This document shows, piece after piece, positions 19,863 to 45,688 of a stretch of DNA of 64,000 nucleotides. The notes beneath the pieces are model-generated. The model was given only the letters and a program-made list of their open reading frames with translations, did not search any database and had not been told where the DNA came from. How positions within the stretch are numbered: the first letter of the stretch is position 1; each line of letters starts with the position of its first letter. Both the position numbers and the translations under genes were made by a program. Source of the stretch: Lepidurus packardi (Eukaryota; Arthropoda; Branchiopoda; Notostraca; Triopsidae); assembly GCA_023053545.1 (NCBI GenBank), contig JAKZAN010000005.1:8742001-8806000 (forward strand), given 5' to 3'.

Positions 19863-22800
19863 ATGTCGGACTTTATCAAGTCGGCTGCTGGTTTGATCAG
19901 CTCGTATAGTGCAGGATTTAATGGAAGCGCTGGCATTACTCTGGGTTTGGGTTCTGAGAATCCATTAGTGGGACAAGTTATTGAAGTGGATCGTATGCAG
20001 CTGAAAGTGAAGAAATTATTGGCTGAAGGTAGTTTTTAATGATTTATTTCCCTTGATCTTTATTAATTGATTGTATTGGCTAATATATTCACATAATGTT
20101 TCACTTTTATAGGTGGATTTGCATTTGTGTTTGTTGCCCAAGATATTCAATCTGGTCAGGAGTATGCTTTAAAGCGTCTCATTGCATCCGATGCCGAAAC
20201 GAGCAAAACTGTGATGCAAGAAATCAGTTTTTTGGTACAAATCTCTAGTTTTTGTTTGTTTTGGGTCTTACGGTTTGTGTTGCAGAAAACGCTGGCCAAC
20301 CATCCCCATATTATTCAGTTTATCGCTGCCACAGCTGTTGAAAGAGGGACGTCTGGCAACAAAGAATATTTTCTCGTCACCGAGCTTTGTTCAGGTTGCT
20401 AAGCAACTTTAACACTTAAAATTAGCCAAATGCTAAATTTTAATCATTTTAGGAGGAGGATTGATTGACGCCCTTAACGTCAAAGGAGGTCCATTGTCTC
20501 CTGATTTAGTTTGCTCAGTATTTTGGCAACTTTGTAAAGCTGTACAAGCCATGCACAGCCTCAATCCTCCCATTATTCATCGTGATTTGAAAGTAAGCTA
20601 CACATTATCACCCGGTAAAAGCCTTCAATTTTGAGCTAATTTTGTGTCTTGTTCTTTCTAGCTGGAGAATGTCTTGTTGACTGTGGATGGTAGAGTGAAG
20701 CTATGTGATTTTGGAAGTGCTACCATGCAGCACTATCAGCCTGGACCTACTTGGAGTGCTGCTCAGCGTGGTTTACTGGAAGAAGACATGGCTAAGCATA
20801 CAACGCCCATTTACCGGGCTCCTGAAATGTTAGATACGTGGGATAATCGTCAAATTGGAGCTCCTGCTGATCTCTGGGCCTTAGGCTGCGTTCTCTACTT
20901 CCTTTGCTGCCATGCTCATCCATTCCAAGATGCTGCCAAACTCGCTATCCTGAATGGCAACTATGCTTTGCAAGCAGGTGGCCGTTACGATGCATTCCAT
21001 AGCCTCATACGTAATCCCTTCTTAAGTTAAGTATGAAGTATTTGATGCATTTCCGAAATATCTTCGTAGGAGGACTGCTGAAAGTTGAGCCTAATGAACG
21101 ACTCACTGTCAGCCAAGTTCTGGAGGGTTTGGCGGCCATTGCTGAGACCAAAGGTTACAATCTGAAAGCTACTGTTCCTCTAGAAGTCCGTGCAGAAGTT
21201 TCCCCCAATCCAGTGACAGGTCAGTAGCTACGTCTAAAGTACTTTTTATTGTTGTATTTTATGTCCAATTCAGTACATATTTAATTTCTATTTATTTCGT
21301 CATAGTTCCACCAAGGCCGGCAGAACCACCTTCGAGACCGCTTCCTCCTTCGCCTCAGCCACCCAGGCGACCTCCACCTGTGATGACAGCCCCCCCTTCG
21401 CAAACCATGCAAAACACCCCTCCTAATGCAGGTCTGTTTTCGTCGCTCAAGGGTGGAGCTGGCTCCTTTCTAAAGAACTTGAAGGATACTTCTTCCAAAG
21501 TGATGCAGAGCGTTCAACAGTAAGTTTCTTTCCGCACATAATCGGACACAAATAAGCAACTCTTTTATAACATAAAACTGTTTTCGACAGGTCAATTGGG
21601 CGCAATGAACTGGATTTGTCTTACTTAACTTCTCGTATTTTGGTGACGTCATTTCCAGCCGAAGGCTTGGAATCAACTTATCGAACGCATGTGGAAGATG
21701 TGCGAGGAGCTTTGGATGTCCGTCATGCGGGACATTATGCCATTTACAACGTGTCTGGGAGGAGTTACCCGCCCACGCGTTTCCCACAAGCTCGCGTAAC
21801 TGATTGTGGTTGGCCAGCACGTAAAGCTCCGCCCCTTAAGACGCTTATCGCTTTGTGTCGCAGTCTAGTGCAGTATTTGGAGCGAGATGAACGGAATGTC
21901 TGTATCATCCATTGTATGGTTAGTACTAGCCATTTATTAAATTCGAGTTATTTTCTTTTCTTCTGTTGTCTGAGTTTTTTTCTTTTTTTCTTAGGATGGC
22001 AAAGCATCTTCGGCTTGTGTAGTGGTGGCACTCTTTCTGTATTGCCGGCTCTTCCATACACCAGAAGAAGGTGCGCAGCTTTTTGCAGTGAAACGCTGCC
22101 CTCCAATGTTCAACCCGTCTCAACTTAGGTAAATTAAACCCTTTTTAATTTTTAAAAATTGCAGGAAATGCTATTTTTGCTTGACAGATACTTGAATTAT
22201 TTTGCTGATTTGGTCCGTGAACCTCCATTGCTTCCGCATAACCGCTCTGTTACTTTAACAGCAGTGACTGTACAGCCGGTTCCATTGTTTACCAAATTAA
22301 GGTACATAATCCACTGAAAAAAGCTCTGCCTTGTAGAGGACACGGTGAACTGCAAGTAGTTGATCATTTTTTTCAAAAGATGACATTGATGTCACCCCGA
22401 TGTCATGAGAATTGTGCAACTTGAACAAAAATTTAAAAAAAATATAAGGATATGATGGATTTTTTTTATATCTTAATAAAAATATCTTGGTGACTGCGTC
22501 AAAAGATTTAGATATATGATTCACTTAATTTTTCATAACTTTAATAAGTTTCAATAAATCTATCATAACTTTAATAAGTTTCAATAAATCTATCATAACT
22601 TTAATAAGTTTCAATAAATCTATATCTTTTGACGCAGCCTACCAACATATTTTTAGAAAGAGAATTTTCCAAATCTATTGATAAAGTTTTTTTTAAACTT
22701 TTGTTTCCAATTTTGCTTCAAGTTGCATAATTATGATATAGCAACACGTTCTTCGGATTTAGTGACAAAACAGGGTGTAATATATCACGCTGTCGTAACC

Positions 22801-40625: not shown

Positions 40626-41709
40626 ATGTCCGACAAAAAAACGCTTAGTTCAGGATTAACACCTGTATCTAAGTCAACAAAACTAAGTTTAACAAAGAAA
40701 AAGATTGAGTCGCCACTCGCCAAATATCCTTTTACACATTTCTGTATTACATTGTTAATTAATTAATTTTCGAGTTCTACGTGCAGGTTATATGTAGTAG
40801 AATATACATACGATATTTTATCGACGGTAAAAATCTAAATAATAATAATTACTTGCACTATGACATTAGATCCTTAACTTACTTTATATACGTACAATAA
40901 CGCTGGGCAATTACTCTGTATCATATGCAACACCGTGGTGAAAAGCGAATTGGTATGGACCGCCCACATTAATGGCCGGCAACACCGCGAGAACCTCTCA
41001 GCCTTAAAAGAGAGGAAAGAAAAGCCGAAACAACCCGAAACTGCCGTCCCAGCTCCCGTCAAGCGAAAACATGAACAAGATAATCCAACGTTCAAAGTAC
41101 CCGCTGCAAGTCCCAATCGAAACACCAAGTCGGCGCTTCCCTCAGATTTCTTCGAATCCTCTAACGCCAAGCCGCCTAAACCCATTAAAAGCATCTTAAA
41201 AAACAGTTCTTCAAATACACCGCCAATTGCTACCCAAAACCAAGGTCTTCCCACTCCTCAAATCGTCCAACCCAGTCCAAGCGTAGAAAAGGGTCCCATT
41301 CCTGCTGGATTCTTTGACGATCCTATGGCAGATGCCAAAGCTCGACAAATTGAATACAAAGATCCCAGCCAAGAGGAATGGGATAAATTCACAAAAGAGA
41401 TAGCAGAGGCTGAGCTTGAAGCCCGGACATTAGTCGAAGAAGACGTCGAGGAGGCTGGGAAAGAACGTACGTTAGAAGAAATTGACGATCAATTAGATAA
41501 TTGGTCAAGGTAAAAAAAAGAAAAAAAAATACGAAACGCAAGTTAAGCGACTCTGTTTTTTAAATAGGGTGGTAAATCTCGTGAAGAAGAAGGAAGCATT
41601 GCTTACCAAACGGACTACTCCGACTAGCCATGAAGATTCTTCGTCTAGTGCTGATGAAGAAGAGTGTTCCGAATTTTTGGATTGGCGGTCCAAAAAGACA
41701 TTTCGATAG
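40626..41709 (+). CDS. ZNF830: ZNF830 (CCDC16/Omcg1)-like zinc-finger splicing factor
   Basis: Coding exons 40626-40723, 40892-41509, 41568-41709; 285 residues (human 372). The N terminus has KKKIESPLAKYNNAGQLLC, as in ZNF830 (SPFAKYN..GQLSC). It is followed by one C2H2 finger CIICNTVV...HINGRQH (matrin/U1 type). Further shared blocks are SALPSDFF, IPAGFFDDP, EEWDKFTKEI, an acidic coiled-coil segment and the C-terminal FLDWRSK. The human protein is nuclear, linked to spliceosome function and genome stability. Exon 1 to exon 2 uses a U12-type AT-AC intron: donor ATATCCTTTT at 40724, branch TCCTTAAC at 40871, acceptor TATATAC ending 40891. No GT-AG alternative restores the conserved AKYNN junction. 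Divergent from APEH, 626 bp between start codons. Confidence 0.92.
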
Positions 41710-42017: not shown

Positions 42018-42083
42018 TTAGTCCAATTGCGTAACAGGACTCATCATGTTACGGTAGCGGTACACGGTAATGAATCCAGCCAA
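42018..42083 (-). CDS. TSPAN13/31: Alternative distal last exon of the TSPAN13/31 tetraspanin
   Basis: Preceded by an acceptor (TTTTTACTACAG) and in the same phase (0) as the proximal last exon, so it can replace it after the exon at 42579. It encodes 21 residues and a stop. The end of the fourth span is followed by YRYRNMMSPVTQLD, keeping the YRYRN membrane-exit motif but with a different cytoplasmic tail. The similarity of the two exons argues for exon duplication and mutually exclusive use. Confidence 0.75.
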   Translation of the reverse strand: MAGFITVYRYRNMMSPVTQLD

Positions 42084-42292
42084 CTGTAGTAAAAATTAAA
42101 AGAAAATTTAATAGACAATCCATCGTTTTCTCCTGCAAAACAACACAAGAAAGTCCCGAAAAAAAAAAGCATTTCCAAACTAAAGAATAACTGTTTTTAT
42201 GGACCTAAAATTAAGTTTGGGGTTAATACCTGATATTTTTAATACAATTTTCTCTGTGTGATGCCTTTCATGTTATGATTTGCAGTTTTTGG

Positions 42293-43389
42293 TTAGAGGA
42301 AAGCAGAAGGGTTAGCCCGTGGATCCTTTTGGTTTCGGTAGCGGACAGTCAACCACACGCCCACAAACTGGTACAGCATATGGAAAGTGGTTAAACAAGA
42401 AACAAGAAACACGCAAACCACAAAAGTAACAGAAGTGACACGAAAGAGACAAAATCACCCAAGCCAGAATCGAATTTAGGGAATGTGAGGGGAGTGATTC
42501 ACATCAAAACCCGTCCAGAAAGCCAGGTTATTATGTGCAACTAAATCTTTTAAAGTGATAAGTTTTATTCAAATTTACCTCGGTAAAGGAAAAGAAAAGT
42601 CCAACTCCTCCAGAGGCACGGAAAGCGGAGCTGATCATTTCGTGAGTTTTACTCCAGCAATATTGACATACTTTCCTGTCAGGTTCTCCATTCGAATCAA
42701 CTGGGCACTGAAATTGTTTCCAAATTAATTACATAGAAAGTTCAACAAATGATCTATAACATACCGCTTTGGAATTATGGCAAGTAGCGTTCTTATAGTT
42801 CATATTGTCAGAATCGAAGCCACAACAGTCGAAGGTGTCCTGGAAAGTTTCCAGCGTATTATTATCCGTGTTTTCCCAAGCTTGTGCCGCCAAAAAGTGT
42901 TGTTGATCTTCATTAAATGCCAAACAGGCACAGGCTATGCTGAATTGGATGATGAACAGCAAGAAAAGGACCACCATATACTGAAACAAAACGAAGAAAA
43001 ATTTAAAGACCTTAAACTTACGAGTTTTCTGTTTCTTCCAAAATCGAAGACATTTTTTCTTTTCCTTAAAAAAAAATAAAGGCTTACGAAGAAAAGAAGA
43101 ACTTGGTGATGTTTTACTGTTCCAATTAAGCCCAGAATGGCTATCATCAAGAGGAAAACGCCACAAGCAACGATACCGCCCACGATTGGTACGCTGGAAA
43201 CATATCCCACAGTTTGGCTGTACGTCCCAACGCCAATTAAAATGAATCCAACCAACTAGAAAATGAATCCAACCGACAAATAGTTAATAATTTGGCCATT
43301 TTTTAATAAACTGACGCACTAATACTTACGATATAGAAGATGTTGAGCGCAAAAAGCGAGTTTTTAGAACAAGTGAATCCGCCACACAT
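42293..43389 (-). CDS. TSPAN13/31: Tetraspanin, TSPAN13/TSPAN31 group (proximal last exon)
   Basis: Coding exons: 43389-43330, 43255-43088, 42980-42765, 42707-42579, 42367-42293; 215 residues (human TSPAN13 204). It starts [20 protein letters not shown], almost the TSPAN13/31 start. Four membrane spans are visible. The loop between spans 1 and 2 is short, and [13 protein letters not shown] is highly conserved. The large loop contains DCCGFD plus further Cys residues including [15 protein letters not shown] leads into the last span. The last exon ends [15 protein letters not shown], which matches my memory of the vertebrate TSPAN13 C terminus almost residue for residue. Plasma-membrane or secretory-pathway scaffold. 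A second, distal last exon exists at 42083-42018. Confidence 0.95.
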
Positions 43390-45688
43390 GATTGCTGCTT
43401 TTTTGCTGAGAGAACAATTGGACTGAATGTAGTGAACGTCCGGACTAGATTTGACGAAAGGGTTTCTGCGAAAATCAAGAAAATCAGCGATTTTATCTAG
43501 ATTCAGATAAAAAGTGACAAAAGTAAGTGACACATATGCTATGTCTAGTCAACGAAATGGGAGGGCCCACAAGTGACTCAACAGCTGAACACGACTGCAA
43601 CACAGAATAACGTCCTTATCTTATCTTGAATTTCAGTACGTTCTAAACAAAGATGCGTAAGAAAAGCTGACGGGCGGGCTATAAATCACAAACAAGAGAT
43701 AAGCCGTAAGGTACGCTAGCGGTTTATTTTGCAACCGTTAAACTACCTGAAAAGTAAATACGATTTTTGTGGAATATGGAAAAATACGAAATAAAGCTAG
43801 CTAACGCTAATTTACTACTATGCTAATAATGGTACTCGTGTACTTACTTTAACCAGAAACCACACAATTAGCCCGCAAGCCACGTAAGCTCCTTGTCACC
43901 GTCTGTCAGCTTCAGCCTCTTTATCGAAAACATACGTCCTTAGGTAAAGAACCTCGAGTTACCTCAAAAACTTCAGTTCGCAGTTTACCAGCTGTGGTAA
44001 AACCGGGCAACGTGAAATGGTAAAATGCGAAACAAAGTTAATTAGGAAAATTGTCTCAACATATGCAAAATTAAAGGGAGTAAAATTAACAAGACAAAGT
44101 GTAATGTCAAAATATTCTAAAAAAAGGAAGTAAGGTAAAGAAGACCTAAAACTAGATGAAAAAAGACCGATAACCCAGGAGAAACCAGACGATTCCCTGT
44201 AGATCATTCAGCACGAGGATACGTTCATCGAATAGACTGATCCCCGTAATTTGGCTAAAAATAGTTGAAAAATACCTAAAAATGGACCAACATAATTGAA
44301 AAAAGACCTATAAGTCAAAAGAAATCAGACAGTTCTCCTCATTCCTCGTAGACGGTTCTCCGCATTCTTCGTAGAACGAAGAACATGCGTTCCTCGAATT
44401 GACAAACTGAAAATAAAACGGTAGCAAATTACCTGACATGTAGTAGGATTGGTTTCTATTCACATAATGGCTGGCGTGATCTAATTTACGCCACTATGTA
44501 ACCTTTATACTGTGGTTTTAATCAGTGACTTGGGGAAAGGAAACGATTCCTCGACCTTATTCTTACCTCGACCTCGCAAACACTCGGACTTCCAAAAGTT
44601 TGAACTCGAACTTTGTCATGGGCAGACAATCGTGAAAACACCACGGAACTGAAGAAAGGTCATCACGAGACAACACGGAGCACAGGCCTATGTAAAAAAC
44701 AGAAATTAAAAAATTTAAGGAATTTGTTCAATGGGCGACGACGGTGCCATGGGCGAAGTTCAATGAACGAGGCGGCTGAGGGAAAGAGATACTACTACAC
44801 ACACTTAACACTCTTTCGTCGTTGGACTTGTCTTGACGCACTAGGAATTGAAGACAGGACACAAAGGAATCATAAGAATGAGCCAAATGCTTCCACAGAT
44901 GAAACTGCTATTCCTGTCTGGGCTGCGTTCATCAGTAGAAGCTTCCCAAACCCGTTGACTACCCGTGACCCCAGAAAAGCTTTGTTGTTACCACCGAACA
45001 CCTAACGAATGGCAAAAACGAAGACTTTTCTCCACCAGGAAGTCAAAAGTTGCGGGAAAAGACCTAACCGGCCACAACACTTGAACTGCGGGCATTCCTG
45101 TTCCTTCTGGTTCTCCTGATTCCCACAGAGGGTTAATTAGCTGCCTCCAAGCAGCAGAATATCAGCTTAGCAGACTAAAGTTGGATGTTTTCATCTGCAG
45201 AGGATGACGGAAGGCCAGGGATGAAGTAGGCTAAGCGCGACGGAAATGTTCGTTGGAGAGAAAAAGACCACTGCACACTTAACACCGCACTTTTTTTGAG
45301 TGGCGTAGTCCTGACCAGCTTTAATTAGCACTTGAACTAATCCACACATAGACACAGAAAACGAGAAATTATCTGCCGTATCTTCGCGTCTTTTCGCTTT
45401 TTGGCCTAGGTACGTTGGTGTGATCTAATTTCATTAGCCGGTAAAGGTTATACAGTCGGAGATTCATTTTAGCGGTTTAATAACGTTATTCACACTAGCT
45501 ATGCTCAAATCTAAGACATACGGGGCTATATCGAATTGCCTACCAATCAGAATCAGAACAGTTCCCAGTCCAGTTCGCATTCCATAACTCGCTGTTCGCG
45601 TCTGAGGAAACCCGGCAACAGGGGCGGGAACACAGTGCAGACCCACCACTCGCCATTCCTCGCAAGGGGAACATCAAAACACCGAGAA
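43390..45688. other. Intergenic between the tetraspanin and SNX starts (head to head)
   Basis: Should contain both promoters. An imperfect direct repeat starts with GAAAAAAGACC at about 44158 and 44298. The frame at 44613-45005 has no family resemblance and no ATG start. The sequence 45536-45688 is open in frame with the SNX start but looks like 5' UTR. Confidence 0.4.

Follow-up and report, generated by a model that had tools for sequence, protein, structure and literature searches.

An AT-AC intron in the ZNF830 gene

Within the window (the whole 64-kb stretch of DNA that was analysed), positions 40724–40891 of the plus strand almost certainly constitute a true U12-type AT-AC intron, the first of two in a ZNF830 gene for which no second copy was found. 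The gene is organized as follows.

40626–40723, plus strand: ZNF830 coding exon 1, from the ATG to the AA of a split AAG codon, 98 nt
40724–40891, plus strand: AT-AC intron, almost certainly U12-type, 168 nt, phase 2
40724–40733, plus strand: U12-type 5′ splice site ATATCCTTTT
40871–40878, plus strand: branch site TCCTTAAC, putative branch A at 40877
40890–40891, plus strand: AC of the 3′ splice site, its last base 14 nt past the putative branch A
40892–41509, plus strand: ZNF830 coding exon 2, encoding the zinc finger and the greater part of the coiled coil
41510–41567, plus strand: second ZNF830 intron, GT-AG, 58 nt, U2-type by its donor GTAAAA
41568–41709, plus strand: ZNF830 coding exon 3, stop codon TAG at 41707–41709

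Judged by its predicted protein, the host gene is ZNF830. With both introns removed, the reading frame runs from the ATG at 40626 to the stop codon at 41707–41709 and specifies a product of 285 aa, in which the Pfam model ZNF380_CC (PF23406) matches residues 169–248 (E = 4.5e-30; 104.4 bits against a cut-off of 28) and two C2H2 models, zf-C2H2_jaz and zf-met (PF12171 and PF12874, respectively), exceed their cut-offs at residues 42–65. The N-terminal C2H2 finger and the ZNF380 coiled coil that together mark ZNF830 (CCDC16) are both present, and the gene name proposed in the initial annotation is borne out by these models. When the 108.6-Mb genome was searched in all six frames, the three exons of this gene were the three matches returned, and no second ZNF830 copy was found. 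At E-values up to 0.001 only two PDB sequences matched, both of them SF3A2, which has a related finger; the SF3A2 zinc-finger block aligns without gaps across the junction of exons 1 and 2. Additionally, a search for ZNF830 relatives among viral contigs gave one pattern match and no confirmed one. In humans, ZNF830 has been described, along with AQR, XAB2, ISY1 and PPIE, as a member of the complex known as XAB2 or intron-binding (PMC6315705), and a further report also places it in the intron-binding complex (PMC10208982).

The stretch from 40724 to 40891 reads ATATCCTTTTACAC ... GATCCTTAACTTACTTTATATAC, and the next exon opens with GTACAATAAC. Its 5′ splice site, ATATCCTTTT at 40724, conforms to the U12-type consensus RTATCCTT(T), whilst near the 3′ end ATCCTTAAC at 40870–40878 agrees with the branch-site consensus TTCCTTRAY at 8 of 9 positions. 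Thirteen intron bases follow the branch site, the last of them 14 nt past the putative branch A at 40877, and the 3′ end, ..TTATATAC, falls at 40891 with ATAC as its final dinucleotides; a nearer AC, at 40881–40882, is only 5 nt past the putative branch A. The initial annotation had recognized an AT-AC donor, branch and acceptor signature, as well as an AAG codon split within SPLAKYNN, and both descriptions held: ATATCCTTTT, TCCTTAAC and the ATAC end are all present, and removal of 40724–40891 joins the ZNF830 frame in phase 2, dividing the codon as AA/G and the peptide as SPLAK/YNN. Retention of the intron introduces in-frame stop codons. Moreover, sliding the intron cannot yield the same mRNA, as the bases differ at both borders (A at 40724 against G at 40892, and A at 40723 against C at 40891). 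Sequence and frame are direct observations; from these we infer that the intron is spliced out.

Choice of the splice junction

We examined joins with donors at 40637–40900 and intron ends up to 40999, and found 5293 that kept the frame and left it open, whatever the dinucleotides at their ends. Only seven of these were GT-AG or GC-AG joins (four and three, respectively), and every one of the seven loses the zinc finger CIIC and scores between −15 and 18 against the SF3A2 zinc-finger block, in keeping with an earlier statement that no GT-AG choice restores the family sequence. The join at 40724–40891 scores 65 in the same test and heads the 46 AT-AC joins. With other ends, 41 joins score higher and 20 others are tied, and thus the block of the SF3A2 paralogue cannot fix the junction to the exact nucleotide. 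The peptide SPLAKYNN itself is produced by five joins, of which 40724–40891 is the only AT-AC one, the rest being TA-CG, AT-GT, TC-TA and CC-AC. It is the U12 donor and branch motifs that decide the exact junction, together with the human ZNF830 block IESPFAKYN.

To estimate how often such motifs arise by chance, we searched 100 copies of the window generated with a first-order Markov model. The pattern required a perfect AT-type donor octamer, then within 600 nt a branch site that departed from the consensus at no more than one position, and an AC 8–20 nt beyond it. In the Markov copies, such motif pairs had a frequency of 0.55 per 64 kb. The window itself holds a second pair, at 22453–22287 on the minus strand and without clear coding context, which was set aside as chance as it joins no clear coding frames. 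The motifs alone are not significant in 64 kb; their coincidence with the join that ZNF830 requires is what carries the weight.

These results bear directly on two other readings of the locus. In one, the intron that is removed has GT-AG or GC-AG ends and the AT-AC motifs arose by coincidence, for which both the chance rate of motif pairs and the existence of seven frame-keeping joins can be cited; as all seven of those joins destroy CIIC and none scores above 18 where 40724–40891 scores 65, we consider such an intron very improbable. In the other, the locus is a pseudogene, or exon 1 lies outside the gene and translation begins at another site. Against this, the frame of exon 1 opens with ATG and closes with KKKIESPLAK, which presumably resembles the human ZNF830 protein closely, and the 285 codons are free of stops in a gene whose second copy was not found, so that we give this reading hardly any credence.

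Minor snRNAs and their predicted pairing with the intron

We found one match in the genome to each of the Rfam models for U11 (73 bits), U12 (111.4 bits), U4atac (61.8 bits) and U6atac (81.8 bits). All four, which the initial annotation had named as the RNAs to look for, exceed the Rfam gathering score and are taken as snRNA genes, whilst an Rfam scan of the whole window gave no matches. The U6atac gene is short, at 88 nt (L004, 1501–1588) against 126 model positions, and it lacks the first internal stem that the model has after GGAUGGAA.

On paper, the genome's own U11, U12 and U6atac pair with the sites of the intron. The predicted duplex of the U11 5′ end with the donor has an energy of −9.3 kcal/mol, which was equalled or bettered by 55 of 2000 random 14-mers, and that of U12 with the branch site, in which one A is bulged, has an energy of −9.1 kcal/mol, with 38 of 2000 random 16-mers as good. 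The random controls cover these two duplexes; the predicted energies of two more are −7.4 kcal/mol for U6atac with the donor and −27.0 kcal/mol for U4atac with U6atac. In the mechanism that we propose, U11 would pair with ATATCCTTTT and U12 with TCCTTAAC, U6atac would take over the donor from U11, and the minor spliceosome would then join 40723 to 40892, creating the codon AAG and the block SPLAKYNNAGQLLC ahead of the zinc finger.

An AT-AC intron need not be a substrate of the minor spliceosome, as sodium channel genes contain AT-AC introns of the U2 type (PMC2831892), and the intron described here might be genuine yet removed by the major (U2) spliceosome. Introns of that class carry G at +5 (PMC2831892), however, whereas the ZNF830 intron has C at this position, along with a full U12 donor and a U12 branch site, in a genome where all four minor snRNAs are present. 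Removal by the major spliceosome is accordingly most unlikely, and use of the U12 pathway is the reading that we prefer.

Other candidate minor introns and minor-spliceosome proteins

Genome-wide, a strict, short-spaced AT-AC pattern had a single match, against five for a backwards control, and such motifs are therefore not enriched; the strict GT-AG pattern matched twice, against none for the control. All three matches sit between exons that can be joined in frame. The AT-AC candidate lies in an NHE-family Na+/H+ exchanger gene (Pfam, 44.7 bits; cut-off, 26.2), the peptide of which matched 13 PDB sequences (best E = 1e-13), and both alignments shown, which are to NHE9, run across the join without gaps. 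Of the GT-AG candidates, one belongs to an FHIT-like HIT protein that aligns gap-free across the join to 1ems (E = 2.4e-14), whilst the other belongs to a gene that we named TMEM41B-like by eye, its match to the Pfam VTT model (17.5 bits) falling below the cut-off of 33.9 and its peptide finding no PDB match. TMEM41B is listed with a U12-type GT-AG intron in both fly and human (PMC2831892). All three candidates share the donor and branch consensus of the ZNF830 intron, although they are shorter (71 nt in the NHE-like gene and 80 nt in each of the FHIT-like and TMEM41B-like genes, compared with 168 nt). The genome thus very likely uses minor introns, of which strict ones with the spacing searched are few.

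Two further genes have U12-type introns in other animals. For STX6, an AT-AC U12-type intron is on record in both fly and human (PMC2831892); at the STX6 locus of the present genome we saw no U12-type intron, with exact matches to TCCTTAA, CCTTAAC and CCTTGAC all absent downstream of the first domain exon, and by eye the introns flanking that exon start with GTAAGT and GTAATT. The U12-type intron of STX6 has been lost, converted or missed. The second gene is a neighbour of ZNF830 on the minus strand (42300–43500) that encodes a tetraspanin (Pfam, 85.3 bits), presumably of the TSPAN13/31 kind. Its intron 2 (43087–42981, minus strand) reads GTAAGCC..TTTTGTTTCAG and is U2-type by eye, and at about 42020–42370 on the minus strand there are two putative alternative last exons, one of them with YRYRNMMSPVTQL. 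In fly Tsp97E and human TSPAN13, intron 2 is given as U12-type (PMC2831892), and if the positions agree, a U12-to-U2 conversion is possible.

With regard to proteins, PDCD7, which we take to be the U11/U12-59K protein, was found in the genome (E = 1.3e-16). The zf-U11-48K model matched four fingers, none of which was identified as U11-48K itself; one of the matches (L020) resembles, by eye, a two-finger protein of the Gtsf1 type. The CENATAC (CCDC84) model gave no matches in the genome in a search without a positive control, and such a non-match does not show absence. Depleting CENATAC in human cells had an effect on 92 % of the A-type minor introns (PMC8280824). One may speculate that the genome keeps AT-AC minor introns (ZNF830 and NHE) although CENATAC is lost, splicing this subtype in another way, and further that a failure to remove the U12-type intron of ZNF830, a gene that encodes a splicing factor, could make splicing at large depend on how active the minor spliceosome is; we regard this idea as improbable.

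Other features of the genome

A GH7 cellulase gene (L016, 1501–1944) was matched as several separate exons on a 13.5-Mb contig of this animal-like genome, and because of this it is probably resident rather than contamination. One exon is identical to 4xnn at 99 of 131 residues and to 4gwa at 92 of 130, which are presumably the enzymes of Daphnia pulex and Limnoria, respectively; the genome is likely that of a crustacean near Daphnia. Four of eight contig ends were searched for tandem repeats. The end of contig C4 (L012) carries a tandem array whose units measure about 153 and 334 nt, with CCTAACC pieces scattered through it, which may be a degenerate subtelomeric repeat, and at one contig end the degenerate sequence CCTAACCTAACC hints at TTAGG, the arthropod repeat.

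Comparison with known minor introns

On the basis of a BLAST search, a 2014 study suggested that minor spliceosomes may be absent from Daphnia pulex (PMC4202315). For the genome studied here, the snRNA genes that we found go against this suggestion, and if the genome is close to Daphnia they are direct evidence against stretching the 2014 view to it. A 2023 survey inferred pronounced minor-intron loss in the Pancrustacea ancestor and reported two copepods with no conserved minor introns and 75 % of minor snRNAs missing; a figure legend of that survey names Daphnia pulicaria as one of the species in its plot of minor-intron loss (PMC10639083). The main text of PMC2846911 makes no mention of Daphnia, crustacea, ZNF830, CCDC16 or ecdysozoa. 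The surviving ZNF830 intron is useful for the history of minor introns in Pancrustacea, and adds a conserved AT-AC U12-type intron together with a full minor snRNA set for a compact genome that probably lies close to Daphnia.

In our literature search, the only work found to link ZNF830 with a minor intron, or CCDC16 with U12, was that of Lin et al. (2010). Table 2 of that paper gives Drosophila CG11839 as CCDC16/ZNF830 and its intron, 1 of 1, as AT-AC and U12-type (PMC2831892), and CG11839 is treated as a U12-type gene in four other papers (PMC2952598, PMC6199344, PMC7644725 and PMC12084885). The initial annotation had raised the question of whether ZNF830 orthologues share the intron position; gene, AT-AC subtype and place as first intron, the three features compared, all agree with the fly. 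The intron most likely goes back to the same ancestral one as AT-AC intron 1 of CG11839, and looks to be old and conserved. In contrast to the single intron of CG11839, the gene described here has an additional GT-AG intron, and it differs further from its human orthologue, as ZNF830 is intronless in mammals, presumably through retroposition (PMC2831892), whereas here it has two introns. A specialist would not be surprised by this finding: what we describe is of a known kind, an AT-AC U12-type intron in its already known host gene, and is ordinary for those who work on such introns.
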